Part shown: positions 4,163 to 34,750 of the stretch, one piece after another
Layout: each line of letters begins with the position of its first letter
How positions within the stretch are numbered: the stretch's first letter is position 1
DNA from: Candidatus Planktophila sp.
Lineage (GTDB): Bacteria; Actinomycetota; Actinomycetes; Nanopelagicales; Nanopelagicaceae
Direction: 5' to 3'
NCBI GenBank assembly: GCA_013205535.1
Contig: JABMMN010000011.1
Span: 1-34,750, forward strand
Length of the DNA stretch: 34,750 nt
Notes under the pieces: model-generated
Database searches by the model: none
Told to the model about the DNA's origin: nothing
The model's input: the letters and a program-made list of their open reading frames with translations, nothing else
Position numbers and translations under genes: made by a program

Positions 4163-7100
4163 GTGATCACGAACTATTGGATGAGCCCTGAGACGACATC
4201 GCTCAATCGCCTTCCAATGCTCAATATCGAGCACCTTGAAAAGATCTCACTTGATGGCACTTGGCGTTTCCAACTCCTTCGCAATCCTCTCGCTCGTCTT
4301 GGAAAGAAATGGTCATCAATTCCCGTCCCCGGTTTATGGACGATGCAGCCAGAGAGTGATGTCTTTTTTGATAAACCTATGTATACAAATGTGCAGATGC
4401 CCTTTGAAGAACAACCTCCATATGTGCCAGAGGAGAACCCTCATGGTGTGTACGAGCGAGATTTTGACATACCAGAGAGCTGGCGAGATAAACGCATAGT
4501 GCTTCACCTTGGTGGCTACGAGTCCGTTGCCCTTATCTATATCAATGGCATGCAAGTTGGACTTACAAAAGATTCAAGACTTGCCGCAGAGTTTGATGTT
4601 ACAAAGTTCGTATACCCAGGTTCGAATGTGATCCGTATCGATGTGACGAAATGGTCAGATGCCACTTTTATTGAGGATCAAGATCAATGGTGGCATGGGG
4701 GGATCACCCGCTCAGTCAAGCTCTTTGCAACGAATAAGGTTTTTATCGAACGTTTTTATACGACGGCGGGTCTTGATCAAGATCGCACCACCGGAACCCT
4801 AAATATCCGTGCACATATTGCTAGCATCGAGAATCTATCGATTGATGGATACTCCCTTCGCATATCTATCGAGGAGCTAGCAAAAGTTAAAGGCTCTGAA
4901 TTAGAGGCAACGATAAAAAGTTTCATAGCTCCCCTATGGACAGAGCGTGATGAAAAACTCAAGCGCAGAAGTGACGAGTATTTTCATGGCAGGTTCTGGC
5001 ATGGAGATATGCCCGAGGATGCACGACGCGCCATCGCAGAGAACGAGCCCTGGCCCGCTGGAGCAATCGAGTTCGACACCACTATCTCAAAGGTAAAAGC
5101 CTGGTCTGCAGAGAGCCCTCATCTCTATACCCTGCACATCGAATTAGTGGATCCCACAGGCGCTGTTATTGAGGTCTCACAACAAAAAATCGGTTTTCGC
5201 TCAGTTGTTATCGATGGACAAGAGCTCCTAATAAATGGTGCACCAGTTATCTTCTACGGCATCAACCGTCATGATTTCAACCGCTTTACTGGACGTGCCT
5301 TGACTCGTGAAGATATGCGTGAGGATTTACTCGAACTCAAGCGCTGGAACTTCAACGCTGTGCGTACATCGCACTATCCCAATGATGCAGCCTTCCTTGA
5401 TCTATGTGATGAGCTTGGTTTTTATGTGATCGGCGAGGCCAATATCGAGTCGCATGCCTTTATCTCATCGATCTGTAATGATCCAAAGTATCTGAGCGCC
5501 TTTGTGGATCGGGTAGGCCGCATGATCGCCCGTGATATCCATCATCCCGCTGCAGTCTTATGGTCACTTGGAAATGAATCAGGTGCTGGGACTAATCACG
5601 AGGCCGCTGCAGCCTATGCACGTGCCTTCGATCCCACGCGCCCACTGCACTATGAAGGTGGGATCCGAGGCAACTGGATGGGTAGTCACTCACTCACAGA
5701 TGTAATCGCGCCGATGTATCCAAACATCAGTGCAATCAAGGAATATGCGAACTCTAAAAAAGCCGATCGCCCGTTGATCATGTGCGAGTACTCGCATGCA
5801 ATGGGAAACTCTAATGGCACTCTGGCTGAGTACTGGGAGACCATTGAATCGACTCACGGCCTTCAGGGCGGCTTCATTTGGGAGTTTTGGGATCACGCTC
5901 CTGTGCAGACGATGCCCGATGGCAGTACACGTAATGCATACGGTGGAGATTATGGCGAGAGCAAACACGACGGTAATTTCTGTTGTGATGGAATGGTCTT
6001 TCCAGATCGCACGGCAAAGCCTGCTATGCATGAGTTCAAAGCCATTGCAGCCCCAGCCAATATCAGTGCAGTAAAGGCATCTCTTGGTAGTTTCACAATT
6101 TTCAATAAGCAATTCTTCAAGGATCTCAGTGAGTACGAACTCACTTGGTCTATCACTCGTGATGGGCTGATTACCGATAGTGGGCGTGTGAGGCTTCCCA
6201 AAGTTGGCCCGCGTAAAACTATTTCCTTCATAGTAAAATCTCAACTTTTGAATAAACCAGATGGCCTAGGTGAGCGCTTTATTAACTTCCATATTATACG
6301 TATCGCAAGTACTGCATGGGCACCGGCCATGAGTGAAGTTGGTTGGAACCAGATGCCACTTCCATCACGGGCTCTGAAAGTGAGAACGACTAAGAGTTCA
6401 GAGTTATTTACTGATGTGATCGATGGATATGGTCAAATTCTCATGCCATATGGAGCTTTAGCACCTGTTCTATCGCTGTGGCGTGCCCCGACTGATAACG
6501 ATCGAATCGGACATATCGCAACTAAGTGGAGCCGTTGGGGTTTGCGCGATATCGATCGTAGCGATTGTGTTATCTCTCAAAATAGCTCCCGTGCCATAAT
6601 CACAAATACTTGGCAGACGAGTACTGGTCTTATCATCAAACATAAACAAGTGGTAACTCCTGTAGCCGATGGCTTTAGGGTTAAAGAGAGCGTTGTACTG
6701 CCTAAGCAGTTGGATGATGTTGCACGTGTTGGAATCAACTTTGAGCTCGATGGCCAACTATCTGATCTCACATGGTTTGGATCGGGTCCTCACGAGTCAT
6801 ATCCTGATCGAAAGATCGCACCGATAGGTCGCTATGTCTCAACCGTGGCCAGTCAATATATTCCATACGTGCGACCACAGGAAAATGGTGGACACAACGC
6901 AGTTCGTTGGATTGAACTCACAGAATCATCTGGACGTGGGCTTCGAATCGCCTTTTCTCGCCCGCTTCAAGTCTCTGTGACGCCTCACCGCAGCGTTGAT
7001 CTCGCCGATGCCACTCATGATGTAGAGGTAAAAGCGTGTGGTAACACTGTCGTACATATTGATGGCGCTCACCGTGGAGTTGGTACTGCCTCTTGTGGGC

Positions 7101-7171
7101 CTGACACTCTTGCCAAGTATGTGATTAGGCCCGGTCTGCATTCATGGGAGTGGACAGTCACCTCAATCTAA
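4163..7171 (+). CDS. Glycoside hydrolase family 2 beta-galactosidase (LacZ-like); start may be ATG downstream
   Basis: 1002 aa; SLGNESGAGTNH acid/base motif, MCEYSHAMGNSNG nucleophile motif, C-terminal beta-gal small-chain-like domain. Confidence 0.93.
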   Translation: MITNYWMSPETTSLNRLPMLNIEHLEKISLDGTWRFQLLRNPLARLGKKWSSIPVPGLWTMQPESDVFFDKPMYTNVQMPFEEQPPYVPEENPHGVYERDFDIPESWRDKRIVLHLGGYESVALIYINGMQVGLTKDSRLAAEFDVTKFVYPGSNVIRIDVTKWSDATFIEDQDQWWHGGITRSVKLFATNKVFIERFYTTAGLDQDRTTGTLNIRAHIASIENLSIDGYSLRISIEELAKVKGSELEATIKSFIAPLWTERDEKLKRRSDEYFHGRFWHGDMPEDARRAIAENEPWPAGAIEFDTTISKVKAWSAESPHLYTLHIELVDPTGAVIEVSQQKIGFRSVVIDGQELLINGAPVIFYGINRHDFNRFTGRALTREDMREDLLELKRWNFNAVRTSHYPNDAAFLDLCDELGFYVIGEANIESHAFISSICNDPKYLSAFVDRVGRMIARDIHHPAAVLWSLGNESGAGTNHEAAAAYARAFDPTRPLHYEGGIRGNWMGSHSLTDVIAPMYPNISAIKEYANSKKADRPLIMCEYSHAMGNSNGTLAEYWETIESTHGLQGGFIWEFWDHAPVQTMPDGSTRNAYGGDYGESKHDGNFCCDGMVFPDRTAKPAMHEFKAIAAPANISAVKASLGSFTIFNKQFFKDLSEYELTWSITRDGLITDSGRVRLPKVGPRKTISFIVKSQLLNKPDGLGERFINFHIIRIASTAWAPAMSEVGWNQMPLPSRALKVRTTKSSELFTDVIDGYGQILMPYGALAPVLSLWRAPTDNDRIGHIATKWSRWGLRDIDRSDCVISQNSSRAIITNTWQTSTGLIIKHKQVVTPVADGFRVKESVVLPKQLDDVARVGINFELDGQLSDLTWFGSGPHESYPDRKIAPIGRYVSTVASQYIPYVRPQENGGHNAVRWIELTESSGRGLRIAFSRPLQVSVTPHRSVDLADATHDVEVKACGNTVVHIDGAHRGVGTASCGPDTLAKYVIRPGLHSWEWTVTSI

Positions 7172-7951
7172 ATGCGATAACGGCCAATGAATCGCAGTGG
7201 GATATTTGCAACTACGTCCATCTCCCGATGACTTACCCCGCGAGCGGCGCCACATCCATGGCAGAGCAAAGGTAATAAACCACATCACCTTCACAAATAT
7301 ACGTAATGCTCTTGGCTTTGCTTTGACATATGGCAATGGATCTTGCCACGACGGATCAAATGGAAGTTTGAGAAGTTGAAGGATCGCTTGAGCGACACGA
7401 TAGTGGCCCTCCTTGTTCAGATGGAGCCGATCAAAGGCCAGGAATCTTGTATCACTAAATACGATCTCATCATTGGCATCGGCGATGATTGCACCGACCT
7501 CAGCGCCAACTGAGAGGACGTTGTTATTAAAATCTCTGAAGCGTTGCTCCCACATCGTGGCAAGACGACCCTTATTTCCTGTGCGCTCTAAGACAGTAGA
7601 TAAAATTATTGTGGCACCTGATGCCGCCAAGCGACGCACCGCCGCCGAATATAGAGGCAAGACGGTCTCGGATTCATAGCGTGGGCGGATGACATCATTG
7701 GCACCGGCATGGAAAGAGATGAGAGTATCTGGACCAGTGACTTGGGCGATCGCCGCATCAATCTGTTCAGCGACAACTTGGTGCACTAATTTTCCACGAA
7801 TCGCCAAATTGGCATACGTAAAATCTGGGTGGTGTTGAGTCATGACATCAGCGACTCGATCGGCCCATCCACGGTAGTTTCCATATTTTTTCTCATCGCA
7901 CATACCTTCGGTGTATGAGTCACCCAAGACGATTAAACGTTGATAGTTCAC
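7163..7951 (-). CDS. SGNH/GDSL hydrolase
   Basis: VLGDSYTEG block I, HAGANDV block III, DRLHLNKEGH block V. Confidence 0.9.
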   Translation of the reverse strand: MNYQRLIVLGDSYTEGMCDEKKYGNYRGWADRVADVMTQHHPDFTYANLAIRGKLVHQVVAEQIDAAIAQVTGPDTLISFHAGANDVIRPRYESETVLPLYSAAVRRLAASGATIILSTVLERTGNKGRLATMWEQRFRDFNNNVLSVGAEVGAIIADANDEIVFSDTRFLAFDRLHLNKEGHYRVAQAILQLLKLPFDPSWQDPLPYVKAKPRALRIFVKVMWFITFALPWMWRRSRGKSSGDGRSCKYPTAIHWPLSHLD

Positions 7952-7956
7952 TGCAA

Positions 7957-8961
7957 TTAACCCTTACGGCGTGCCTGGTCTATGAAAAAGAGTGCGATCG
8001 CCGTTGCAACACTGGCGTTGAGGGATTCAGTGGTTGCACTGATTGGAATCGAGATCACAAGATCGCATTTCTCGCGGGTTAGACGTGCAAGACCCTTGCC
8101 CTCACTGCCCACGATGATCATGAGCGGCTCGGATGCGATCTTGATAGTGCCAATGAGCTCCTCGGACTCACCATCTAGGCCTAGGACGAAGAGCCCCTCT
8201 TTCTTTGCTGCATCGATCGTGCGGGCAAGGTTTGTCACTTGTGCAATAGGTAAGCGCGCTGCAGCACCAGATGATGCCTTCCATGCCGATGCTGTCATCG
8301 ATGCCGCACGGCGCTCGGTCATTAGAACCCCCGCTGCGCCAAATGCCGCCGCACTTCGGATGATCGCACCTAAGTTACGGGGATCTGTCACACCATCGAG
8401 TGCGACGATGAGTGCTGGATGTTGTGCACGCTGCATGATCTCTTCATAACTTGAGTATTGAAAGGGCTTGATTGCAAGAATTATCCCCTGACTATTGGGA
8501 GAGATTCCCTCGACCTCTGCGCGGTGTGCCTCGCGGATAGGAAGTCCAAGATGTAGCGCCAACTTCAATGATTCAGCGACGCGATCATCGACCTCGATAC
8601 TGCGCGCTACTAATAATTCAGTTGATGGAACACTCTCGCGCAACGCCTCAAGGACAGCGTTGCGACCTGCAACGATCTCACCACGTGGTCTATCACCACG
8701 CGCAGGACGCGCTGAGCGCATCTCCTTGCCATCACTTCCTCCACTTGTGACCCGACCAGCACCACGAGCAGAGGTTTTACTAGAACTTTTTTTCACAGCG
8801 GCTTTTTTACGCTTTGCTGCGGCGTGATACGGGCGATCTTCAGCCTTGGGGGTTGGCCCTTTCCCACTCAGCCGTTTCTTGTTCTTTCCACCCGTGCCAC
8901 CGGCCGGTCCTTTTTTCGATGCACGGATTGCGCCCTTACGGGATGAATTGCCGGCCATCAT
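7957..8961 (-). CDS. rlmB: 23S rRNA (guanosine-2'-O-)-methyltransferase RlmB / TrmH family with a basic N-terminal extension
   Basis: SpoU/TrmH motifs DGVTDPRNLGAIIRSAAAFGAAGV, IIVGSEGKGL, ISIPISATTESLNASVATAI. Likely starts at the ATG overlapping the cysS stop; the ORF track extends to 8985. Confidence 0.92.
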   Translation of the reverse strand: MMAGNSSRKGAIRASKKGPAGGTGGKNKKRLSGKGPTPKAEDRPYHAAAKRKKAAVKKSSSKTSARGAGRVTSGGSDGKEMRSARPARGDRPRGEIVAGRNAVLEALRESVPSTELLVARSIEVDDRVAESLKLALHLGLPIREAHRAEVEGISPNSQGIILAIKPFQYSSYEEIMQRAQHPALIVALDGVTDPRNLGAIIRSAAAFGAAGVLMTERRAASMTASAWKASSGAAARLPIAQVTNLARTIDAAKKEGLFVLGLDGESEELIGTIKIASEPLMIIVGSEGKGLARLTREKCDLVISIPISATTESLNASVATAIALFFIDQARRKG

Positions 8962-10364
8962 TAACTCTTTTCCATCATCGACCAACGTGGCCCTTGTGCA
9001 GTGTCCTCAATTGTAATTCCTAATGCCAATAGCCCGTCTCGGATTGCATCAGATGCTGCAAAATCCTTACGCTCACGTGCAGCTGCACGCTGCGCAAGAG
9101 CCAACTTCACCACACCATCCATGGCCTGAGTTAAATCCTCGCAGGCGTTGGCACTGAAGTGAGTATCAAAAGGATCACAGCCCAAAATTTCCAGTGCGCC
9201 ACGGATCTCACTGGCGTTTTTAGATATTGCAGCCTTGTTTGTATCGGTGATCCCTTGATTTCCAAGGCGCAGATTCTGCGAGATAGTGGCAAGGGCTGCA
9301 GGCACCGCTAAATCATCATCCATAGCGGCGGCAAATTCCTCACTGATGACACACTCTGGTATTTCACCCAGAAGCTCTGCCGAGCGCTTAAGAAAACTCT
9401 CTATGCGTCGAAATGCGATGGCCGACTCATCAAGGGCGCCTTGAGAATATTCGAGCATTGAGCGGTAATGCGCGCTGCCTAAATACCAGCGTAGTTCGAT
9501 TCCACGCACACGCTGCACTATCTTTTCTACGAGTAGTGAGTTACCGAGTGACTTGCTCATCTTCTCACCAGACTGTGTGACCCATGCGTTATGCATCCAG
9601 CGCGCAGCAAATCCATATCCCGCCGCCTCTGATTGGGCGATCTCATTCTCGTGATGTGGAAAAATCAAATCTAAGCCACCACCATGTATGTCAAAGCTCT
9701 CACCTAAGTAAGCATGTGCCATCGCCGAACACTCAAGGTGCCATCCCGGCCGGCCGGCTCCCCATGGTGTTGGCCATGATGGCTCACCTGGCTTGGCGGC
9801 CTTCCATAGTGCAAAGTCATGTGGATCTCGCTTCATTGAGGCGATACCCTCGCCATCGCTAGCCGATAAAAGATCATCGATACGTTGGCCAGAGAGTATT
9901 AAATAACGAGCTAATTTCCGGACCTCTAGATAGACATCGCCATTACCTGGGGCATAGGCCGAACCGTTATCGATGAGGATCTGCATCAACTCAATCATCT
10001 GAGTGATATGGCCCGTCGCCCGAGGTTCATAAGTTGGGGGCATGACATTGAGCGCATCAAAGGCGACGCTGAATTCACGCTCATACTTCATCGCCAGCGC
10101 CCACCAGGCCATATCTTCATGGCCCGCCTTATGCAAAATCTTGTCATCGATATCTGTGACGTTACGGATCAAGCTCACTTTGTATCCAGATGAGATGAGC
10201 CAACGACGCAGAATATCGAAGTTGACTGCGCTGCGAATATGACCGATATGAGGAGATGCCTGCACTGTTGCACCACATACATAGATCGAGACTTCACCAC
10301 TCTTTATGGGAGCAAATTCACTCACAGAGCGCGTTGCAGTGTCGTATAAGTTGAGAGCAGACAT
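8961..10364 (-). CDS. cysS: Cysteinyl-tRNA synthetase
   Basis: YVCGATVQASPHIGHIRS, HGGGLDLIFPHHENEIAQ and KMSKS motifs. Confidence 0.95.
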   Translation of the reverse strand: MSALNLYDTATRSVSEFAPIKSGEVSIYVCGATVQASPHIGHIRSAVNFDILRRWLISSGYKVSLIRNVTDIDDKILHKAGHEDMAWWALAMKYEREFSVAFDALNVMPPTYEPRATGHITQMIELMQILIDNGSAYAPGNGDVYLEVRKLARYLILSGQRIDDLLSASDGEGIASMKRDPHDFALWKAAKPGEPSWPTPWGAGRPGWHLECSAMAHAYLGESFDIHGGGLDLIFPHHENEIAQSEAAGYGFAARWMHNAWVTQSGEKMSKSLGNSLLVEKIVQRVRGIELRWYLGSAHYRSMLEYSQGALDESAIAFRRIESFLKRSAELLGEIPECVISEEFAAAMDDDLAVPAALATISQNLRLGNQGITDTNKAAISKNASEIRGALEILGCDPFDTHFSANACEDLTQAMDGVVKLALAQRAAARERKDFAASDAIRDGLLALGITIEDTAQGPRWSMMEKS

Positions 10365-23631: not shown

Positions 23632-24561
23632 ATGCTCACTATCCCAAAGACCGAGCTCTTAGTTCATCCCCTCTGCCTTGGCACCAACATCTTTGGCAGT
23701 AACGCTGATGCCACACAGTCCCATGCCGTCTTAGATGCCTACGCCGCCCATAATGGAAACTTCATCGACACGGCAGATATGTATAACCAGTGGGTGCCGG
23801 GTCATATCGGTGGTGAGTCAGAGCGCATCATCGGTTCGTGGATGAAGGCCCGAGGCAATCGCGCTGCGATGGTAGTCGCAACCAAGGTTGCAAAATTGGA
23901 TGGCCGGCGTGGATTGTCTGCGAAGAATATTTTCTTGGCTTGTGATGAATCACTTGATCGACTGCAGAGTGATTACATCGATCTGTATTACAGCCACGAG
24001 GATGATGCAAGTATTTCGTTGGAAGAGACCTTGGGCACATATGCCCAATTAATTGCACAAGGCAAGGTGCGCCACATCGCCGCCTCTAACTTCACTGCCA
24101 CTCGTCTGCGCGAATCGATCCAATATAGCGAGGCAAACAACATCCCTGCCTATATCGCAGTACAGGATCTCTATAATCTCGTGGATCGTAAAACCTACGA
24201 AGGTGAAATGGCTCAAACTGTAGGAGATCTTGGGATCTCTAACATCCCTTTTTACGGAATTGCTCGTGGCTTTTTATCAGGCAAGTATCGACCTGGCATC
24301 GAAGAGGTCGATTCGAAGCGTGCAGCCGGTGCCCGCGAATATGCAACGGATAAAAACTTTGCCATCATCGCTGCAATGGATAAGATCTCAGCAAGCCATA
24401 ACAATGCGCCCTTATCTTCCATCGCACTTGCATGGCTTCGGGCCCAACCCACTGTGAGCGCACCTATCGCATCTGCCCGCACAGTGGCGCAGTTAGAGGA
24501 GATCATTCAGATAATTAAATTAACGAACGCTGAGGTAGAAGAGCTCAACGCTCTTTCTTGA
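23632..24561 (+). CDS. Aldo/keto reductase
   Basis: LCLGTNIFG, NFIDTADMYNQW, DYIDLYYSHEDD, ASNFTATRL; the ORF track begins at 23614. Confidence 0.92.
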   Translation: MLTIPKTELLVHPLCLGTNIFGSNADATQSHAVLDAYAAHNGNFIDTADMYNQWVPGHIGGESERIIGSWMKARGNRAAMVVATKVAKLDGRRGLSAKNIFLACDESLDRLQSDYIDLYYSHEDDASISLEETLGTYAQLIAQGKVRHIAASNFTATRLRESIQYSEANNIPAYIAVQDLYNLVDRKTYEGEMAQTVGDLGISNIPFYGIARGFLSGKYRPGIEEVDSKRAAGAREYATDKNFAIIAAMDKISASHNNAPLSSIALAWLRAQPTVSAPIASARTVAQLEEIIQIIKLTNAEVEELNALS

Positions 24562-24633
24562 GCCGCCTTCGGGAATCGAACCCGAGACCTTCGCTTTACG
24601 AGAGCGACGCTCTGCCAACTGAGCTAAGGCGGC
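24562..24633 (-). tRNA. tRNA-Thr(CGT)
   Basis: Reverse complement forms a full cloverleaf GCCGCCT TA GCTC...GAGC G TCGCT-CTCGTAA-AGCGA AGGTC TCGGG-TTCGATT-CCCGA AGGCGGC. Confidence 0.95.
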
Positions 24634-25675: not shown

Positions 25676-25805
25676 TGTGAGAGTATAGATAGGCCTCTTG
25701 GCGTAGTCGATAAGCCTCGACGAGGCCTTGCCCCCAATTCAAGGAGGCGAGAATCTCATCTTGAGAACCTGTTAGAGCTGGAAAGTCATTCTGAGCCAGC
25801 ACCAA
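25665..25805 (-). pseudogene. 3' remnant of an unidentified gene formerly in an operon with the WecA-like gene
   Basis: Open frame LVLAQNDFPALTGSQDEILASLNWGQGLVEAYRLRQEAYLYSHNEH* has no start of its own and an in-frame TGA upstream; its stop overlaps the WecA-like ATG. Confidence 0.55.
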
Positions 25806-25810
25806 TCAAA

Positions 25811-26677
25811 TTATTTTACTAAGCCTAATTTTGCAGCAGTAAATGAATGATCATGAGAATCAATTTTTATCTCTCTACCTAACTTTGCCCCTATTTTGCT
25901 TCCTATACCAAGAGATTCTTGGGCTATGCCACCGCCAAAAGCAACAGGTATCTCCGGGGAACCTAATCGCCTTTCCATCCGCTTCACCAATTCTACAAGG
26001 CAATCAGTAGCTCTATTTAAAATTGCAATCGCACTCTCTGATCCCTGTGCGGCTGAAGTACTGATAATTGGAACCAAGCTGGCAATTTTTGACCTATCAT
26101 TTGAGTAGACAAACTCCCTAACACCTGGCCAGTCGTGTACTCCGATAGCTTGTGACAGATTATTAGATAAGAGATCTAAGGAATCTAAATCTTCAAACTG
26201 TGTAACCAGCCAACGTAAGGCTTGATGTCCAATCCAGTAGCCAGCTCCCTCGTCTCCTAACAAATATCCCCAACCACCAATACTTACCTCCTTGCCTTTT
26301 GAGTCGATATGAACTGTGATTGATCCAGTTCCAGCGTATAAATAGATACCCTCTCCTGGATCAAAGGTTGATCTGTAGGCAAGGCCTACATCTGTTCCTA
26401 TAAATAATTTGGATTGAGGAAAGAACTTGAGAAGCTTTTCTCGAATCACTTCTGATGCACCTAATCCAGTGATTCCTAGAGTGATGACATCCGGCCTTAG
26501 ATCACCTAGATGTAAAATTAGTTCTTTTAGAAAATTATCAAACTTAACCTGTGACTCGACCCGGTAAAGATGGCCATCAATTGGAGCTGAATTTCCTCTA
26601 GCCTTTATAGCGCCCGATCCATCAACCAAGCTCCACTTCGCTGAAGATGAGCCTCCATCAATTCCAAGACTTAGCAT
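25811..26677 (-). CDS. BadF/BadG-type ATPase, N-acetylglucosamine kinase-like
   Basis: LGIDGGSSSAKWSLVDGSG, TLGITGLGASEV, IYLYAGTGSITVHI, GGWGYLLGDEGAGYWIG. Confidence 0.88.
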   Translation of the reverse strand: MLSLGIDGGSSSAKWSLVDGSGAIKARGNSAPIDGHLYRVESQVKFDNFLKELILHLGDLRPDVITLGITGLGASEVIREKLLKFFPQSKLFIGTDVGLAYRSTFDPGEGIYLYAGTGSITVHIDSKGKEVSIGGWGYLLGDEGAGYWIGHQALRWLVTQFEDLDSLDLLSNNLSQAIGVHDWPGVREFVYSNDRSKIASLVPIISTSAAQGSESAIAILNRATDCLVELVKRMERRLGSPEIPVAFGGGIAQESLGIGSKIGAKLGREIKIDSHDHSFTAAKLGLVK

Positions 26678-26696
26678 GTCCTAACCCTAGGATCAC

Positions 26697-27428
26697 TCAT
26701 AATATTGAGACTCGCTCTTTGAGTATAGATAGTAACTCTGAATTTCTTGCATCACCCTCCAAAGTGTTACTGCTACTAAATATTTCAGGCTTGCTACCGT
26801 TTTCAATCATGATTTCTACTGCTCGGACTACAAGTGCATTGACTATCGCTGCCCCTATAACTGTGGATGTTGGACCAGTCTTTTCCTCAAGTCCCAAATA
26901 GGAAATTGTCGCATCTCCAACCTGCCCCAGGTTATCTATCGTTATATCCGCAAGCTCATGAATTTTTCTTCCATGCACTCTGGCTGCTGGGGATGTTGCG
27001 TGTTTAAGGCTTGTGATAGCGATTAACATCAAACCCCGCTCTTTCACTTGATTTGCAATCGCTTCTACCAGGGCATTGCCACCAGAATTTGATGCAATGA
27101 TGAAGACATCACCTTTGCGTAGTTTGTGTTTAGCCAAAATATTGATGGCTAGTGCGGGATTTCGCTCTAGTTCGGTGCTCCTACTAGCATTTTTGTGAAG
27201 CATTAAGTCTTCCTCAAGGATTGGATTTACGGCGCCAAGCCCCCCGGCCCTATAAAACATCTCCTCAGCCAACATATGAGAATGGCCTGTACCAAAAATA
27301 TGTATCAATCCATCCTTTTGAAGTGATTGGGCAATTAGACCAGCAGCATCTTCGACTTGTTGGCAGTCTTGACGCAATCTTGTCAATAGTTCAATTAGAT
27401 TTGATAAGTACTCTTGGTGAGACTTCAT
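26697..27428 (-). CDS. SIS domain sugar-isomerase-like protein (UPF0309-like)
   Basis: IHIFGTGHSHMLAEEMFYRAGG, KGDVFIIASNSGGNALVEAIANQVKERGLMLIAITS. Confidence 0.88.
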   Translation of the reverse strand: MKSHQEYLSNLIELLTRLRQDCQQVEDAAGLIAQSLQKDGLIHIFGTGHSHMLAEEMFYRAGGLGAVNPILEEDLMLHKNASRSTELERNPALAINILAKHKLRKGDVFIIASNSGGNALVEAIANQVKERGLMLIAITSLKHATSPAARVHGRKIHELADITIDNLGQVGDATISYLGLEEKTGPTSTVIGAAIVNALVVRAVEIMIENGSKPEIFSSSNTLEGDARNSELLSILKERVSIL

Positions 27429-28159
27429 GAAACTTTTTGACTCCTTGTTTCCTCAATAGTTGCACTTACTTCTATTTGTAATTCAAATAAGTCGCTTCTA
27501 TAGAGACATTCAGCTGTCATTACAGGTTTACCAAATTGATCTAAATCCAACATCTTAATAAGGAGACAGGGAGTTTTTAATGAAGTCTGGAGAAGATTTC
27601 TATCTTTTTCACTCGGGTTGTGAGCGGTGATCCCTGCTTTAGCACTCATGATTCTAATTCCAAATTTCTTTGAAAAAACATCATATATAGAACCCTTGAG
27701 ATCTTCAGGGGTTAGATTTGGTATTGAGCTGCAAGCGATACGAAGTGTTTCCAGAGCAACTGGCATTTGATCTGCCAGGCGCAGTCTTGTGACTTGAAAT
27801 ATATCGTCTCCTCGGTTGATTCTTAATAATTTTGAAACACTTATATTTGCATTAGTCTTCTTAAATGAAATTAGGCTAGAGGATGGTTCTTGCCCTCTAG
27901 CTCTGATTTCTTCAGTGAATGACTTCAGACGCATCTCTGATGAAATCATGGGTCTCTTGATGTAGGTTCCCGAGCGGGCTCGTCTCTCAAGTCTTCCATC
28001 TGAGATAAAATCTTCAATCGCTCGCCTTAAAGTAACGCGACAAACTCCAAATTCCTCAGAGAGCGTTCTCTCGCCAGGCAGACGGGCGCCCTGGTGAAGC
28101 TGAGAAAGCAAACTCAATAATTGCTCTTTAGCCCTTATTGCAGCTTTATCGGCATTCAT
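27425..28159 (-). CDS. GntR family regulator, HutC/UTRA subfamily
   Basis: N-terminal wHTH LPGERTLSEEFGVCRVTLRRAIEDFISDGRLERRARSGTYI and a C-terminal UTRA-like domain. Confidence 0.9.
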   Translation of the reverse strand: MNADKAAIRAKEQLLSLLSQLHQGARLPGERTLSEEFGVCRVTLRRAIEDFISDGRLERRARSGTYIKRPMISSEMRLKSFTEEIRARGQEPSSSLISFKKTNANISVSKLLRINRGDDIFQVTRLRLADQMPVALETLRIACSSIPNLTPEDLKGSIYDVFSKKFGIRIMSAKAGITAHNPSEKDRNLLQTSLKTPCLLIKMLDLDQFGKPVMTAECLYRSDLFELQIEVSATIEETRSQKVS

Positions 28160-28226
28160 GTTTCTGAGGGTATTGTGTGAAGCTAGATAAATCTAGAGTC
28201 TGGAACGAGAAATTATCAGACCAGTC

Positions 28227-28287
28227 TGGACTAGATCTGATTTTTTAGGCGTAAATTATAGTTGAAAACTTGATTTGCTATAGACCA
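28227..28287. promoter_or_regulatory. Two candidate DasR/NagR-like GntR operators (28227-28238 and 28276-28287)
   Basis: TGGACTAGATCT (9/12) and TGCTATAGACCA (10/12) versus the dre-type core TGGTCTAGACCA, in the divergent gap gntR/GNAT. Confidence 0.45.
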
Positions 28288-28331
28288 GATTGCGCTCGCC
28301 AAAACAACAGCGAATAAGAGATTATTCTCGC

Positions 28332-28934
28332 ATGCCAGAAATTGAGATTCAGCAGGCGAGGCTTGATGATTTGGCTGATTTGTATTTTGTAACTTTGAAG
28401 ACTGGTAACTCTGGAAGTGATGCCACAGCGCTATTTAGAAATGATCAGATGCTCGGTGAAGTGTTTGTCGGCCCTTATGTTACTCATGCAAGTGAGACCA
28501 GTAACCTTCTTTCTCAGTCAGGAAAAACTGTTGGATATGGGCTCTGTGTTCTTGATACCGAACTCTTTCAAAGTATCTGCAAGAAGAACTGGTGGCCGAA
28601 ATTACAAATCAAATATGCTGAGCTAAAACATACTATTGAAGATGATTGGTTAGTCCGGGAAATATTCTTTCCTACTTTATCACCTTCTGAAATACTTAAA
28701 GATTTTCCCTCTCATGGACATATCGATTTACTCCCTGAGATTCAAGGAAAAGGCTGGGGTAGAAAAATGATGGCGCAGATGGAGAAACAGTTACAGGAAC
28801 TCGGCTCTGTAGGTTTTCATCTTCGGGTCTCTTCTCATAACGAGCGAGGTTTGCAGTTTTATGCAGCTCTTGGATACATAGAGCTTTTACAGGTTGGAGA
28901 TGAAGTTGTTGTGGGAAAGCGTTTCTCCAAGTGA
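28332..28934 (+). CDS. GNAT family N-acetyltransferase
   Basis: HIDLLPEIQGKGWGRKMMAQMEKQL...LRVSSHNERGLQFYAALGYIEL; the ORF track opens at a TTG at 28290, ATG at 28332 is preferred. Confidence 0.8.
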   Translation: MPEIEIQQARLDDLADLYFVTLKTGNSGSDATALFRNDQMLGEVFVGPYVTHASETSNLLSQSGKTVGYGLCVLDTELFQSICKKNWWPKLQIKYAELKHTIEDDWLVREIFFPTLSPSEILKDFPSHGHIDLLPEIQGKGWGRKMMAQMEKQLQELGSVGFHLRVSSHNERGLQFYAALGYIELLQVGDEVVVGKRFSK

Positions 28935-28959
28935 GCGAATTGATTATTTGGTTCGACAT

Positions 28960-29781
28960 CTACTCCTTAACGGCCCCGCTTGAAAGTCCAGCCACCAACC
29001 AGCGCTGAATTACGACCGTCAAAAGGACTATCGGTATCAAGGCCACCGTGGCGGCAGCTGCCATAGGACCCCAATCAAGGGTGCGATTACTTATGAAACT
29101 GGCAACCAAAACTGGAAGAGTTTTTGAGTTCTCTCCAGCCATAATCACAGGAATTAGAAACTCATTCCAAGAAAGAAGAGAAACAAATATCCCAGTGGCC
29201 ACCAAGCCAGGCGCCGCTAATGGCAAGATGATTCGAGTAAACAATTTGAAGGTTGAAGCCCCATCGACTCTAGCGGATTCTTCAATTTCAACTGGTATCT
29301 GTTCAAAAAAACTCATCAATAACCAAATTGCAAATGGGATATTAAAGCCTGCAAAAATCAGAATTAATCCAATTTTTGAATCATAGAGACCTAGAAATGA
29401 GCTGAGTTTGTATATTGGCAAGAGCAACACGATCGCTGGAAGCGCTCTCACAGCAATCATCAATCCCTCTAAGGGAGTTCTACCCCTGAATCGTGGTTTT
29501 CTTGCTAATGCATAGGCTGCAAGACTTCCGATCACCAAACAAATGAGCGTGCTTCCCAGTGTAATGATGATGCTATTGGAATAGATTTGCCAAAACTTCT
29601 CTAGGGCAAAAAGCGATGTGTAGTTCTTTAGGGTGGGAGTAAAGCTGAAGAACTTTGGTGGCAGGCTATAAGTATCTACTCGATCCTTTATTGAAGTACT
29701 TATAGTCCAAAAGAGCGGAAATAGTGAGAAAAAAGAGGCTCCAATCAACAGGGAATAAGAGGCGCTTCGCTTGAGAATCAT
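28960..29781 (-). CDS. Carbohydrate ABC transporter permease (MalG-type)
   Basis: Multi-TM with EAA loop EESARVDGASTFKLFTRIILPLAAPGL. Confidence 0.92.
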   Translation of the reverse strand: MILKRSASYSLLIGASFFSLFPLFWTISTSIKDRVDTYSLPPKFFSFTPTLKNYTSLFALEKFWQIYSNSIIITLGSTLICLVIGSLAAYALARKPRFRGRTPLEGLMIAVRALPAIVLLLPIYKLSSFLGLYDSKIGLILIFAGFNIPFAIWLLMSFFEQIPVEIEESARVDGASTFKLFTRIILPLAAPGLVATGIFVSLLSWNEFLIPVIMAGENSKTLPVLVASFISNRTLDWGPMAAAATVALIPIVLLTVVIQRWLVAGLSSGAVKE

Positions 29782-30674
29782 CGCACAACCCTTGAAGCTC
29801 GACGCCAGAGGAAATAGACCGGGAGCGTGATTATGGTAATTATTACCCCCAGCGCTGCTGCTCTAGAGAACTCAAGGAAGACAAAGCCGGTCTTATATGT
29901 CCAAAGCCCAAGGGTTGTAGTCGCATTTCCTGGGCCCCCTCGGGTGAGAATAAATAACGTGTCAAATAGTTTAAGAAAATCCATAATTTTGATCATGGTT
30001 ATTACCAAGAGTGTCGGTGTGATTAATGGCAGCGTAATCCTTCGGAATATCTGACTAGCTGAAGCTCCGTCAACCCTAGCTGCCTCATATAAAGAAGGTG
30101 AGATAGCAGTCAGGGCCGCTAAGACCAAGAGCATGACGAAAGGGACTGATTGCCACGAGTCCACAATTATTATGGCGAATAGTGCACTTGTTTGTGAGCC
30201 TAGCCAATTTACTTTTTCTATTCCAATACTTCCTAAAGCCCAGTTAATAACACCAAGATCGGTGTCAAACATAAATCTATAGGTCAGACCAACTGCGACC
30301 GGAGTCAGAAGCATCGGAGTGATTAAGATTGATCGAAATATTTTTGTGCCACGTAGGTTCTCATGTAGAACTAAAGCTAAAAGTATCCCTAGTGGTATCT
30401 GTGTAAGTAATCCAATGAATGTAATAATTAAGGTAATTCGAAGTGTTGACCAAGTCTCAGAGGCAACTAACACTGTCTGATAGTTTTCAAATCCCACAAA
30501 GTTTGGTGGGAGAAAAGAAGCCAGATTAATATTTAAAAACGATATATAAACCCCATAGAAGAAGGGAATTAACACGACCAGTGCGAGAAAAATCCAAGTA
30601 GGAATAGTTAACTGTGCAACAGGGCGAAGATTCTTCCTACGCAGCAAATTGGGCCTGGACACTTTAGTGATCAT
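29778..30674 (-). CDS. Sugar ABC transporter permease (MalF-type)
   Basis: Multi-TM with EAA loop YEAARVDGASASQIFRRITLPLITPTLL. Confidence 0.92.
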   Translation of the reverse strand: MITKVSRPNLLRRKNLRPVAQLTIPTWIFLALVVLIPFFYGVYISFLNINLASFLPPNFVGFENYQTVLVASETWSTLRITLIITFIGLLTQIPLGILLALVLHENLRGTKIFRSILITPMLLTPVAVGLTYRFMFDTDLGVINWALGSIGIEKVNWLGSQTSALFAIIIVDSWQSVPFVMLLVLAALTAISPSLYEAARVDGASASQIFRRITLPLITPTLLVITMIKIMDFLKLFDTLFILTRGGPGNATTTLGLWTYKTGFVFLEFSRAAALGVIITIITLPVYFLWRRASRVVR

Positions 30675-30720
30675 TTTCTATCACTATTGTGCCAGGCCCA
30701 AGCCTTAGTTTTGGCGCTGA

Positions 30721-31989
30721 TTAGCTCTTAGGCTCTTTTGCAAGTATCGGTTTGAGCTTCTCGTTAAGCGCATCCAATGCTGCCTGAGTCTTCTTCTTCC
30801 CAGTGAGAACCTGAGTTATAGCATCAATTGCTGCAACCTCAAATTCTGGCCATACGGCAATCTGTGGGTATCTCTCAATGCGTGAGCTTGATGGGATCTC
30901 CAACTGTGGCAGATATGGATTCTTTACTAATAAATCCGCATTGTTGATAATCGACTGACGGCCAATCGCTGCGGCACCTGACTCAAGGTACTTCACTGAA
31001 TTGGTCTTTCCTAGAACGAATTCGAGGAACTTCCAAGCGGCATCAGGATTCTTTGCATCAGCAGGAACTCCAATATTCCATCCAGCAAGATGGGTTGTAT
31101 CAACGCTGCCCATAGGCATTGGAGCTGTACCAATCTTTCCAGCATTCTTATTTATGCTTGGATCAAGAGCCATTCCGTAGTAGCCGGAGTAGTTGAGCAT
31201 TGCTCCAATATCTTCACCAAGGAATTTACTTGTTGTGTCATCACCGGTCGCCGTGATTGCTCCCTTTGGTGAGACTTCAAGTAATTTCTTAAGATAATCA
31301 GTGGCAGCAACTGCTTCCTTTGAATTCACTACTGGATTGAGATTCTCATCGTAGAGAGCTCCTCCAAATGACCAAACTAGCGTCATCCACCACCAAGATA
31401 CGTTTGGACCAAAGCCCATGATCTGTCCGCCAAATCCTGCAGCCTGAACTTTCTTGGCATTGTTGTAGTACTCATCCCATGTCTTAGCTGGAGTTAATCC
31501 AAGCTTCTCATAGAGATCAGTTCTATACCATTGAATCATTGGCTCAGTGCTTAGAGTTAGGCCTAAGGTCTCGCCCTTGCATTTACCATAATCTTGCTGT
31601 CCTTTTCCAAAATCATTGATGTCATACTCATCAGAACCAGAGATGTATGAATCAAGAGGTAACATGGCTTTGGCTTGGCAGAATGGGGCTAAGTATGTAT
31701 TGTCGAATTGTGCAATGTCATAAGCTCCCGCTTTTTGATTGTAGCTAAGGAGTTGTTTCTGATGTGCTTCCCCGTATGGTGTCTCAGATACATTAACTTT
31801 GATCCCAGTCTCTGCTTCAAACTCCGGGATAAAGCTCTGAATTGATGTTGATGATGGGCTAGGAATTAAAAAGACATTAATTTCTCCGCCTACCTCACCA
31901 CCAGATTCTGAGTCACTACTGCATGCACTCAGAGTTAAAACTGCAGCGGCAACTAAAGCAACTGCCTTGAAATTTCTTCCCTTTAACAA
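30721..31989 (-). CDS. Extracellular sugar-binding lipoprotein of the ABC transporter (TTG start)
   Basis: Lipobox LTLSACSS; family-1 solute-binding protein pattern; SD-like AGGAGAGG upstream. Confidence 0.93.
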   Translation of the reverse strand: MLKGRNFKAVALVAAAVLTLSACSSDSESGGEVGGEINVFLIPSPSSTSIQSFIPEFEAETGIKVNVSETPYGEAHQKQLLSYNQKAGAYDIAQFDNTYLAPFCQAKAMLPLDSYISGSDEYDINDFGKGQQDYGKCKGETLGLTLSTEPMIQWYRTDLYEKLGLTPAKTWDEYYNNAKKVQAAGFGGQIMGFGPNVSWWWMTLVWSFGGALYDENLNPVVNSKEAVAATDYLKKLLEVSPKGAITATGDDTTSKFLGEDIGAMLNYSGYYGMALDPSINKNAGKIGTAPMPMGSVDTTHLAGWNIGVPADAKNPDAAWKFLEFVLGKTNSVKYLESGAAAIGRQSIINNADLLVKNPYLPQLEIPSSSRIERYPQIAVWPEFEVAAIDAITQVLTGKKKTQAALDALNEKLKPILAKEPKS

Positions 31990-32095
31990 ATGTTTTCCTC
32001 TCCTTGTGGGGCGCGACCCCTAGTTGCTTAAAAGTACCCATAAACACTTGATTTATTAAGGGTTTACTACAACAATCTCAGAACAAGGATTTCTC

Positions 32096-32107
32096 TGGTC
32101 TGGTCTA
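32096..32107. promoter_or_regulatory. Candidate DasR/NagR-like GntR operator upstream of the PIG-L gene
   Basis: TGGTCTGGTCTA (9/12 to TGGTCTAGACCA), inside two overlapping CTGGTCT half-sites (32095-32106). Confidence 0.4.
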
Positions 32108-32121
32108 TTTTTGGAGGTAAA

Positions 32122-32910
32122 TTGGCTAAAAGGCTGCGGATACCACTCACCGGGCAAAAAACTGGTCTGATAGTCATCTCCCATGCCGATGACCTGCTCT
32201 TATTTTGTGGGGCGGCGACCTTGGCGCTCTTGGATGGTGGTTGGAAAATCCACGTCATAAGGGTTACCGATGATCGTTGGGATAGCTGGGGTATTGATGA
32301 AGTTGAGACCATCAGGCGCAATAAGTCTGAGTTTGACGAGGTCTTAGCTGCCCTTGGTATAGATTCTCTATCTGAATTTGGATACCCGACAGATACTTTA
32401 GGAGATAAAAGTGAGGTTTCACTTCGAAATCAAATAGTGAAGGTAATTAGAGAGATAAGGCCATATTTGGTGATGAGTTTTGATCCAGATTCAATCAAAT
32501 TTGAGGATAACCAAGACCATATTTTGGTTGGCAGAGCCGTGGCTGAGGCTTGTTGGACCGCAGGATTTGATAAACATCCAGATGGAAAAGTAGACCAGTT
32601 AGCACCTCACCTGCCTATAGAGAGATGGTACTTTGGAAGGGTTGTTGTGGAAGAAACTCACTTTCTTGATCTTGCTAATTATCGCAAACGATTAATTGAA
32701 CTAATATCACTTCACAGAACTATGCTAAATAATATGGTCGCGCAAGCCAGTCTGCAGGCAGAATTTTTAGGCCACTCTTTAGAGCAACTTCAGGAGAACC
32801 CAAAGATTTTCGTGGAATTACTGATGCGCAGCCGTGAGTCAGAGAAATACAGGATTATTGGTCCAGAGAGAATTACTCAATTGATAAAGGAGTTTGGGGT
32901 ACAGACATGA
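32122..32910 (+). CDS. PIG-L family deacetylase (TTG start)
   Basis: GLIVISHADDLLLFCG (variant of AHPDDE), RVTDDRWDSWG, DHILVGRAVAEACW; SD-like GGAGG upstream. Confidence 0.85.
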   Translation: MAKRLRIPLTGQKTGLIVISHADDLLLFCGAATLALLDGGWKIHVIRVTDDRWDSWGIDEVETIRRNKSEFDEVLAALGIDSLSEFGYPTDTLGDKSEVSLRNQIVKVIREIRPYLVMSFDPDSIKFEDNQDHILVGRAVAEACWTAGFDKHPDGKVDQLAPHLPIERWYFGRVVVEETHFLDLANYRKRLIELISLHRTMLNNMVAQASLQAEFLGHSLEQLQENPKIFVELLMRSRESEKYRIIGPERITQLIKEFGVQT

Positions 32911-33917
32911 CATTTAAGGCTCAGGGGTTTAATGCAACATACGGAAATAACATTTCAGCAGATGCAATAAATAAGGCTGGGGATTACATACTAGTAACAC
33001 AACCCGAACCTTGGGCACTACTTGATAAAAAAATAGAGAATCGACCACTACAGATAATTCAATCAGGAGATCTCTCTCCACATCATCTAGACAAACTTGC
33101 TGCAGGGTCACCAAGTGCCACAGTGATTGGCCTCGGTGGTGGCGGGGCCATGGATACTGCCAAGTGGATTCATTGGAGGCGAGAGCTGCCATTACTTCAA
33201 TTCCCATCTCTGCCAAGCGTTGATGCGTGCTTTACTCGCATGTCAGCACTCCGAGATCAAGGAGGTGTGCGCTATGAAGGTGATGCAGTTCCCGAGATGG
33301 TCTACGTAGATTTTGAGCTGTTTCGTGCCGCGCCAAAATCCATGGTGACTAGTGGCATTGGAGATGTTCTCTCCTGTCAAACTGCTTGGTTTGACTGGAA
33401 GTTGGCTCATGATGCAGGTAAAGATAAATTTGGTTGGACAAAGGAGATGCCAAAAATTTCACAGATGTATCTAGATGAGCTCTACCAATGTGCTCCTGGA
33501 ATAGCTGAGTTAACTGATGATGGTTTAAGGCGCTTGATGGAACTTCACCGTGATATCGGCTGGCGTTGCCATGACATGGGTCATGCCCGATTTGAAGAGG
33601 GATCCGAGCATTTCTTTGCCTACACTTTCGAGGAAGTAACTGGTAGAACAATCCTTCATGGAGAGTTAGTTAGCATGGGAGTTTTAATAATGTCTTATCT
33701 TCAGGGTAATGATTTCCAGCGTGCCAAAGAAACAATATCTCTGGCAAAAACTAGGCATCGCTTAGAAGATCTTGGAGTCAAGCGCGAAGAAGTTCTAGAG
33801 AGTCTGCGAAGGCTTCAGTCATACACGGTTGAGCAGAATCATTGGTATTCGCAGGCTCGATTCGTTGATCCAGATAAAATTAATGAAGAAGAGATTATTG
33901 GCTTGTTGAATTGGTAA
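32907..33917 (+). CDS. Iron-containing alcohol dehydrogenase / sn-glycerol-1-phosphate dehydrogenase-like protein
   Basis: GLGGGGAMDTAKW cofactor motif, PSVDACFTRMSALR, SGIGDVLSCQTAWFDWKLAH, EHFFAYTFE and LHGELVSMGV metal-ligand positions. Confidence 0.83.
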   Translation: MTFKAQGFNATYGNNISADAINKAGDYILVTQPEPWALLDKKIENRPLQIIQSGDLSPHHLDKLAAGSPSATVIGLGGGGAMDTAKWIHWRRELPLLQFPSLPSVDACFTRMSALRDQGGVRYEGDAVPEMVYVDFELFRAAPKSMVTSGIGDVLSCQTAWFDWKLAHDAGKDKFGWTKEMPKISQMYLDELYQCAPGIAELTDDGLRRLMELHRDIGWRCHDMGHARFEEGSEHFFAYTFEEVTGRTILHGELVSMGVLIMSYLQGNDFQRAKETISLAKTRHRLEDLGVKREEVLESLRRLQSYTVEQNHWYSQARFVDPDKINEEEIIGLLNW

Positions 33918-34074
33918 GGCTAATTCGTCAGCGCTACCTTGCTAACTCCTCTTGGAGAATCTGGGTTGAACTCTTACTTGACACCGGTAAGGTCTAAGGC
34001 AACCCCCCGAAGGACAGGTCCAGGTTAGAAGTAGTGTTTATTTCTAGCATTGATTTGGTATGAAAGGATTTTAC

Positions 34075-34129
34075 TGGTGGCGGGTGAAGGATTTGAACCT
34101 TCGAAGGCTGAGCCGGGGGATTTACAGTC
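34075..34129 (-). other. 3'-half tRNA-Tyr(GTA) fragment including encoded CCA; candidate att site
   Basis: Reverse complement GACTGTAAATCCCCCGGCTCAGCCTTCGAAGGTTCAAATCCTTCACCCGCCACCA; the 5' strand of the anticodon stem (CACGA) does not pair with TCCCC and no D-arm or 5' acceptor follows. Confidence 0.8.
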
Positions 34130-34329: not shown

Positions 34330-34596
34330 TTATTCAAATAATGTATTGCCAAAATCGTCCACACGAACAATTTTTGTTTGTCGGCGGTTTGTTAAATAAG
34401 TTGGCACATAAACGAATAACCAAACACCTAAAGTAATTATGGATAGAAAAATCTGAAGCGTATGGTTAATGTTCTTGCCCTTTACTAATATCGCCTGTAC
34501 TGCTGACTGGCTTTCTACTCGCCAGCCCTTACTAACCTCAGTCGAAATCGCCATAGCCAATTTGTTAGCCTTTTCTGCGTCAGTAATCTTGTCCAT
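34330..34596 (-). CDS. Small membrane protein typical of actinobacterial genomes/mobile elements, function unknown
   Basis: GWRVESQSAVQAILVKGKNINHTLQIFLSIITLGVWLFVYV pattern with one or two TM stretches and a C-terminal VRVDDFGN. Confidence 0.65.
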   Translation of the reverse strand: MDKITDAEKANKLAMAISTEVSKGWRVESQSAVQAILVKGKNINHTLQIFLSIITLGVWLFVYVPTYLTNRRQTKIVRVDDFGNTLFE

Positions 34597-34624
34597 TTTG
34601 ACTCCTCTAGTTAGCGCCTTTAAG

Positions 34625-34644
34625 AGGCAAGTGTGCCTTTTTTT
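34625..34644 (+). terminator. Rho-independent terminator-like hairpin
   Basis: AGGCA-AGTG-TGCCT followed by TTTTTT. Confidence 0.5.
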
Positions 34645-34750
34645 AGGGGTGACGGCTACCCCCCCTGCCTTTCCGGCATATCTCTCTCCCCGGAAGAGAC
34701 AAGGCGTACCTGTTAGAAGCCTTCTAAGGCTTAAGAGAACCGATCTAAAC

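Follow-up and report, generated by a model that had tools for sequence, protein, structure and literature searches.

Gene content and organisation of the locus

The window analysed here is an entire contig of 34,750 bp (JABMMN010000011.1) from a metagenome-assembled genome (MAG) of Candidatus Planktophila sp., an acI-type host of the Nanopelagicales; the MAG comprises 1.17 Mb in 77 contigs and is 86.6% complete. Its right part carries a gene block which probably, though far from certainly, moves horizontally as an island and enables freshwater acI-type actinobacteria to break down an N-acetylated amino-sugar conjugate. Nine intact open reading frames (ORFs) occupy positions 25811 to 33917 in four transcription units, and their coordinates and Pfam families agree with a first-pass annotation of the same DNA. 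Every family assignment lies above the Pfam gathering score, that of Fe-ADH_2 only marginally (29.9 versus 28 bits). The first unit, on the minus strand, holds an accessory BadF/BadG-type kinase resembling N-acetylglucosamine (GlcNAc) kinases (25811-26677, 288 residues; BcrAD_BadFG, 81.7 bits), a SIS-domain phosphosugar enzyme of the NagS/UPF0309 subfamily (26697-27428, 243 residues; SIS_2 in Pfam; PRK02947, 265 bits for a cut-off of 135) and a GntR/HutC regulator of the DasR/NagR type (27425-28159, 244 residues; GntR 42.6 and UTRA 112.9 bits). A GNAT acetyltransferase (28332-28934, 200 residues; Acetyltransf_1) forms the second unit, on the plus strand; its start is probably the ATG at 28332, which gives a protein of the length seen in relatives, rather than the TTG at 28290 (214 residues). 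The third unit, on the minus strand, encodes two permeases of an ATP-binding cassette (ABC) importer, of the MalG/UgpE type (28960-29781, 273 residues; BPD_transp_1, 81.4 bits) and the MalF/UgpA type (29778-30674, 298 residues; 65.8 bits), and the carbohydrate-binding lipoprotein of this importer (30721-31989, 422 residues; SBP_bac_1, 147.9 bits). The last unit, on the plus strand, encodes a PIG-L/LmbE-type N-deacetylase (32122-32910, 262 residues; PIG-L, 69.9 bits) and a predicted NAD(P)-dependent metal dehydrogenase of the Fe-ADH_2 superfamily (32907-33917, 336 residues), hereafter Fe-ADH, which is distant from glycerol-1-phosphate dehydrogenase (G1PDH).

The block is AT-richer than the core to its left, as had been noticed at first sight, with a GC content of 43.1% for 25,676-34,060 versus 50.2% for 1-25675. 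It had also been said to begin at a truncated gene. This is plausible in that about 43 codons are open at 25676-25808 (minus strand), but no homologue of this fragment turned up in ten related loci. We considered whether it could be a piece of the large gene adjoining the WecA-like gene in relatives and rejected this, as no homology was found. The eight genes shared with close relatives evolve under purifying selection, with ratios of nonsynonymous to synonymous substitution rates of 0.03-0.18; BadF lies outside this measurement.

Conservation of the gene set across relatives

Related loci (numbered L; genomes are numbered G) were collected as Fe-ADH orthologues from the order together with named genome contigs, and mapped against all island proteins. 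Seven acI-type loci (L024, L025, L026, L033, L034, L035 and L039) share the same order, SIS - GntR - GNAT - GH1 - permease - permease - binding protein - PIG-L - Fe-ADH, and their proteins are 50-98% identical to those of the window (50-83% for the GNAT orthologue, found at the same place); some of the seven may be one strain sampled in two collections, so that not all are independent of the loci from the named genome contigs. The core made of the ABC importer, PIG-L and Fe-ADH reaches into phylogenetically distant high-GC actinobacteria. Thus L045 (71% GC) and L081 (73% GC) carry the importer, PIG-L, Fe-ADH, a DegT aminotransferase (a tblastn match in L045) and a MocA oxidoreductase. The binding protein is 60-65% identical between the window and these two loci, across actinobacterial classes; the MalG/UgpE-type permease is 61% identical in L045. 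PIG-L, Fe-ADH and DegT occur together in L046, L047, L048 and L080, and a NagB-like gene is also present in the last three (by model search in L048, read from the translations in L047 and L080). L027 and L028 retain the importer, PIG-L and Fe-ADH, their binding protein and permeases being 73-82% identical to those of the window, but differ by a two-domain SIS protein, a second Fe-ADH, a DeoR regulator, DegT and MocA, with a ROK kinase in L028.

Of 296 genomes in the order, 12 encode the binding protein (E ≤ 1e-90) and 12 make up the strong Fe-ADH set, nine genomes being common to both; the resulting P of about 1e-12 measures association and not independent events, given the shared ancestry of the genomes and the linkage of the island itself. 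The family is rare at E ≤ 1e-50, with 4 of 394 other genomes in a class sample and 3 of 396 in a phylum sample. Co-conservation of the gene set, which the first-pass annotation had proposed as a check, was therefore borne out for PIG-L, Fe-ADH and the ABC importer, which recur together, and for the ordered set in the seven acI-type loci. BadF does not belong to this set, contrary to the initial description: only some relatives have it, at another position, such as a 40% identical homologue on the opposite side of the island in L025. We found no description of this gene combination in the open literature, and a plasmid search with Fe-ADH returned only glycerol-dehydrogenase-like matches below 32% identity.

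Several high-GC relatives hold further genes beside the module. A protein weakly similar to neutral/alkaline ceramidases recurs beside PIG-L in L048 (6950-8344, below the cut-off), L047 (7118-8352) and L080 (16797-18002). In L080 a protein resembling, by eye, a GH38-type alpha-mannosidase (6504-9653) adjoins Fe-ADH, and genes resembling NagB, PIG-L and ceramidase lie at a greater distance; it may hint at the conjugate used by high-GC relatives.

The window carries a reduced copy

Compared with its sisters, the window copy is a reduced variant in which GH1 is gone, the short-chain dehydrogenase (SDR) is missing and BadF stands in its place. In sister islands a GH1 beta-glucosidase (TIGR03356, 644.8 bits for a cut-off of 478.5) lies between GNAT and the permease. 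All that is left of it in the window is an 18-bp remnant at 28932-28949 (plus strand), which matches the interior of the GH1 genes of L034 and L033 at 94% and encodes ERIDYL.. as the intact enzyme does. Since this GH1-internal stretch is directly flanked by GNAT-end and permease-end sequence, two deletions must have removed the gene. GH1 was not found elsewhere in the window's genome, which is 87% complete. Nor does the window have the SDR and the second GNAT found after SIS in sisters; BadF occupies that position.

These features raise the alternative that the contig is a chimeric assembly, or that the island is a decaying, functionless remnant in this MAG. The abrupt GC step, the GH1 scar and the missing SDR would fit, as would several sister MAG contigs that contain hardly anything besides the island and break off at its borders, and a decayed copy in L032 (8782-9545, G050), where a Fe-ADH fragment with in-frame stops and a leftover permease fragment stand near intact SIS, SDR, GNAT and NagA genes. 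However, none of the nine ORFs of the window is interrupted, and purifying selection is strong on the eight that could be measured. Moreover, the window copy alone shows the scar and this BadF gene, and is thus not a copy of a sister contig. We therefore regard this alternative as unlikely.

Probable mobility and borders of the island

The island proteins share 83-98% identity with their counterparts in G002, a genome assigned to another genus, while the core protein CysS shares 71%. This difference suggests transfer, although the contig of G002 consists of the island only and could be mis-binned, and the window contig could be chimeric. At the left border, a tRNA-Thr(CGT) gene (24560-24633, minus strand) adjoins a WecA/MraY-like gene; this site is likely an integration hotspot, as in L094 (G196) the same tRNA has a phage-type integrase gene as its immediate neighbour. 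On the right side, a partial tRNA-Tyr gene, which runs from the anticodon loop to the 3' end, lies at 34067-34129 (minus strand) and was not called by ARAGORN. It resembles an attachment site left behind by some other element, and is followed by a short ORF (34330-34749) up to the contig end. This piece is not repeated elsewhere in the window's genome; an intact tRNA-Tyr (85% over 41 bp) lies near the island remnant of L032. Apart from the island, contig 54 of the window genome (L063, 3463-4830 and 5138-6106) carries a second CysS-like gene, 36% identical to the CysS of the window, near a PIG-L gene; these are possibly the mycothiol genes MshC and MshB.

The regulator and its candidate operators

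The window regulator has the HutC architecture, a GntR helix-turn-helix followed by a UTRA domain, and its closest solved relatives are DasR (1.3e-33) and YvoA/NagR (1.4e-27). In NagR, the residues that contact the phosphate of glucosamine 6-phosphate (GlcN-6P) or GlcNAc 6-phosphate (GlcNAc-6P) and the base-reading R38 and R48 are established (PMC4333415). In an alignment with 2wv0, all six phosphate contacts (T90, R133, R135, S165, I166 and Y167), which may be partly generic in UTRA domains, are kept in the window protein; so are R38 and R48, while the wing residue G69 is aligned with an arginine. Three of the four units have a TGGTCT half-site ahead of them, extended to TGGTCTA for GNAT and PIG-L and to TGGTCTG for GntR; these half-sites are kept in most sister islands. 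An operator-like half-site upstream of the regulator gene (28217-28224, minus strand; CAGACCAG = CTGGTCTG) is kept in 6 of 7 sister islands and absent from L025. The same holds for that upstream of GNAT (28281-28288, minus strand; TAGACCAG = CTGGTCTA), which reads TAGACCAA in L026. Upstream of PIG-L lies an operator-like double half-site (32095-32107, plus strand; CTGGTCTGGTCTA), and a CTGGTCTA-like sequence is kept there in sister islands.

Enzymes and importer

The deacetylase keeps the HXDD + H metal/general-base motif described for LmbE/PIG-L enzymes (PMC4101496): H21, D23, D24 and H133 are invariant in an alignment of 11 homologues. As judged from its sequence, PIG-L thus holds the full catalytic motif of N-deacetylases. 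Similarly, the metal ligands D153, H235 and H251 of Fe-ADH and its GGG nucleotide motif (G77-79) are invariant in 16 homologues, as in an NAD(P)-dependent polyol/keto dehydrogenase. Its structure model (predicted local distance difference test score, pLDDT, of 91) matches the fold with a probability of 1.00, the closest folds being glycerol dehydrogenase and G1PDH at about 20% identity.

G1PDH is also the closest NCBIfam and PDB sequence match of Fe-ADH, which could suggest that it is a true G1PDH and that the island degrades a GlcNAc-glycerol or an archaeal-lipid-derived glycerol-1-phosphate conjugate. Against the G1PDH equivalog PRK00843, however, Fe-ADH scores 119.8 bits, far below the cut-off of 413, so that G1PDH activity is not implied; GlcNAc linked to glycerol or inositol, the type of substrate proposed initially, thus gains no specific support. 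Furthermore, sister islands contain no glycerol kinase or phosphodiesterase, and a second Fe-ADH paralogue, about 32-34% identical, occurs in three relatives. We hold this explanation to be highly improbable. The second paralogues (L027 9433-10449, L028 6924-7940 and L031 9385-10401) are about 32% identical to the Fe-ADH of the window; in L031 the gene lies with ABC, DeoR and ROK genes but without PIG-L, as a separate sister module.

The SIS protein matches 3cvj and 9eol, the latter being NagS SCO4393, and keeps 8 of the 9 ligand or essential residues of NagS (H53, S54, R64, S91, E94, S119, S121, D179 and N228), S91 being replaced by threonine. BadF matches hexokinase, human NAGK and a N-acetylmuramic acid (MurNAc)/GlcNAc kinase (8zo3) in the PDB, and scores 87 bits against NagK_SO3507, below the cut-off of 370. 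The last PDB match, the relationship of the NagS/PRK02947 group to MurQ (PMC12680351) and a GH3 NagZ-like gene near the island in L024 would agree with peptidoglycan recycling, in which BadF phosphorylates MurNAc or GlcNAc and SIS acts as a MurQ-like etherase. But the models matched by the window SIS protein do not include MurQ, BadF falls outside the conserved set, MurNAc recycling has no use for PIG-L or Fe-ADH, and no sister island holds a muramic-acid-specific gene. A recycling function is accordingly very unlikely.

Import through an ABC transporter, as proposed from the outset, agrees with the binding lipoprotein and the MalF/MalG-type permeases, which by their families make up a CUT1-type carbohydrate importer. 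No ABC ATPase gene was found among the island ORFs, hence the ATPase must be encoded elsewhere; we take it to be a shared MsiK-type protein.

An amino-sugar context and a proposed pathway

The amino-sugar theme proposed for the block is supported by its DasR/NagR-type regulator and by the genes beside the island in relatives. NagA lies at the island edge in L024 and L032; the opposite edge holds a gene for a NagB-II-like two-domain SIS protein in L025, L032 and, split over two frames, L024; a GH84 beta-N-acetylglucosaminidase stands beside the module in L026, L029 and L030, and a GH3 protein in L024. In the window genome, contig 28 encodes NagA (233.7 bits, above the TIGR00221 cut-off), divergent to a 344-residue SIS protein for which NagB-II is the top-scoring model (224 bits, under the cut-off of 430), while NagB (TIGR00502) was not found in this genome. 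The route without NagA or NagB postulated in the first-pass annotation is therefore a property of the window and not of the cell. In addition, GlcNAc uptake has been reported for acI bacteria (PMC5574706).

On this basis, catabolism of an amino-sugar conjugate is well supported as the role of the island, while the specific conjugate and the part played by Fe-ADH are what we infer. The conjugate would be imported intact by the binding protein and permeases, and PIG-L would strip its N-acetyl group. Fe-ADH would then oxidise or reduce a carbon of the deacetylated product or of its partner. In sister islands, the GH1 beta-glycosidase deleted from the window would split the glycoside. BadF could phosphorylate the released sugar and the NagS-like SIS enzyme could process the phospho-amino-sugar, GlcNAc-6P or GlcN-6P being passed to the ordinary route of NagA and the NagB-II-like enzyme encoded on another contig. 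Either phosphosugar may lift GntR repression at the TGGTCT-type sites ahead of the units.

Several observations weigh against this scheme. Part of the RxR/SIY signature in the UTRA domain may simply be shared by HutC proteins at large. TGGTCT is short, no full dre-type palindrome was found in the window, and a looser search gave no excess over shuffled sequences; we therefore claim only the conserved half-sites, and the operator claim is modest. Structure modelling, which had been suggested as a means to predict the substrate of the binding protein, gave the fold of sugar/oligosaccharide-binding proteins (pLDDT 78) but generic sugar-binder matches only. Streptomyces NagS dehydrates GlcNAc-6P, but homologues at 26-36% identity to it were inactive on this compound (PMC12680351), so that the window SIS protein is not credited with the reaction despite its conserved residues. 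Finally, DegT was not found in the window genome nor in sister acI genomes of the same type, and MocA not in the window island; as many relatives need these extra enzymes, the window copy may run the pathway only partly.

This last point bears on another explanation, in which the island acts on a conjugate of an aminocyclitol or 3-amino-sugar. Its complete version would be that of L027/L028, L045 and L081, with import, deacetylation by PIG-L, conversion of the freed amine into a ketone by DegT transamination and redox steps by Fe-ADH and MocA, and the window would be a shortened offshoot, partial or re-wired to GlcNAc. Indeed, the nearest matches of the L027 DegT are AHBA synthase and 2-deoxy-scyllo-inosose aminotransferases, MocA matches models of UDP-GlcNAc 3-dehydrogenase and inositol 2-dehydrogenase, and DegT accompanies Fe-ADH in eight loci (L027, L028, L045, L046, L047, L048, L080 and L081). 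The binding protein and permeases of L027/L028 and L045/L081 being orthologous to those of the window, the imported compound is probably similar. Yet PIG-L and Fe-ADH are under purifying selection in the window genome and same-type sister genomes, which lack DegT, and the DegT and MocA assignments come from similarity within families that are also biosynthetic. We consider this explanation possible but rather doubtful. The same reserve applies to the wider idea that PIG-L and Fe-ADH, joined by DegT and MocA where the set is more complete, make up an undescribed route for a lake-abundant N-acetylated aminocyclitol or 3-amino-sugar conjugate, by deacetylation, transamination and ketone reduction, bypassing NagA/NagB for that residue and travelling with the island among actinobacteria.

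The acI actinobacteria are among the most abundant lake cells, and their transporters and enzymes for GlcNAc uptake are poorly resolved. A module of binding protein, PIG-L and Fe-ADH conserved from streamlined lake bacteria to high-GC actinobacteria offers a handle on a dissolved amino-sugar compound, and also on the diet of the related clusters containing DegT and MocA.

Comparison with known systems

In combining PIG-L with a 2-deoxy-scyllo-inosose-aminotransferase-like DegT, related loci resemble the clusters of 2-deoxystreptamine-type aminoglycoside biosynthesis (BtrD PIG-L, DegT); the latter are biosynthetic, whereas the island genes sit with an importer and the window has no DegT. Streptomyces NagS (PMC12680351) belongs to the same SIS subfamily and the equivalents of its H53, R64, E94, D179 and N228 are kept in the window, but S91 is a threonine, its gene context with dmdR1 is unlike that of the island, and distant homologues outside Streptomycetaceae were inactive on GlcNAc-6P. 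The archaeal chitinolytic route of Thermococcus (PMC4101496, PMC6566704) combines diacetylchitobiose deacetylase, a PIG-L enzyme, with an exo-beta-glucosaminidase, and resembles the proposed pathway in placing deacetylation before glycosidic cleavage and a SIS-type GlcN-6P deaminase downstream. It differs in that the window PIG-L scores only 24 bits against the solved enzymes, that Fe-ADH has no counterpart there, and that the glycosidase of sister islands is GH1 and not GH35, with none in the window. The GlcNAc regulon of actinobacteria and Bacillus (DasR/NagR, NagA, NagB) is alike in its HutC/UTRA repressor residues, TGGTCT-type half-sites, ABC sugar importer and NagA, which lies beside the island in relatives and elsewhere in the window genome. 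The host of the island has a NagB-II-like SIS protein instead of NagB, with NagA and NagB-II outside the island here; and the regulon has no PIG-L or Fe-ADH_2, the very enzymes that form the core of the island.

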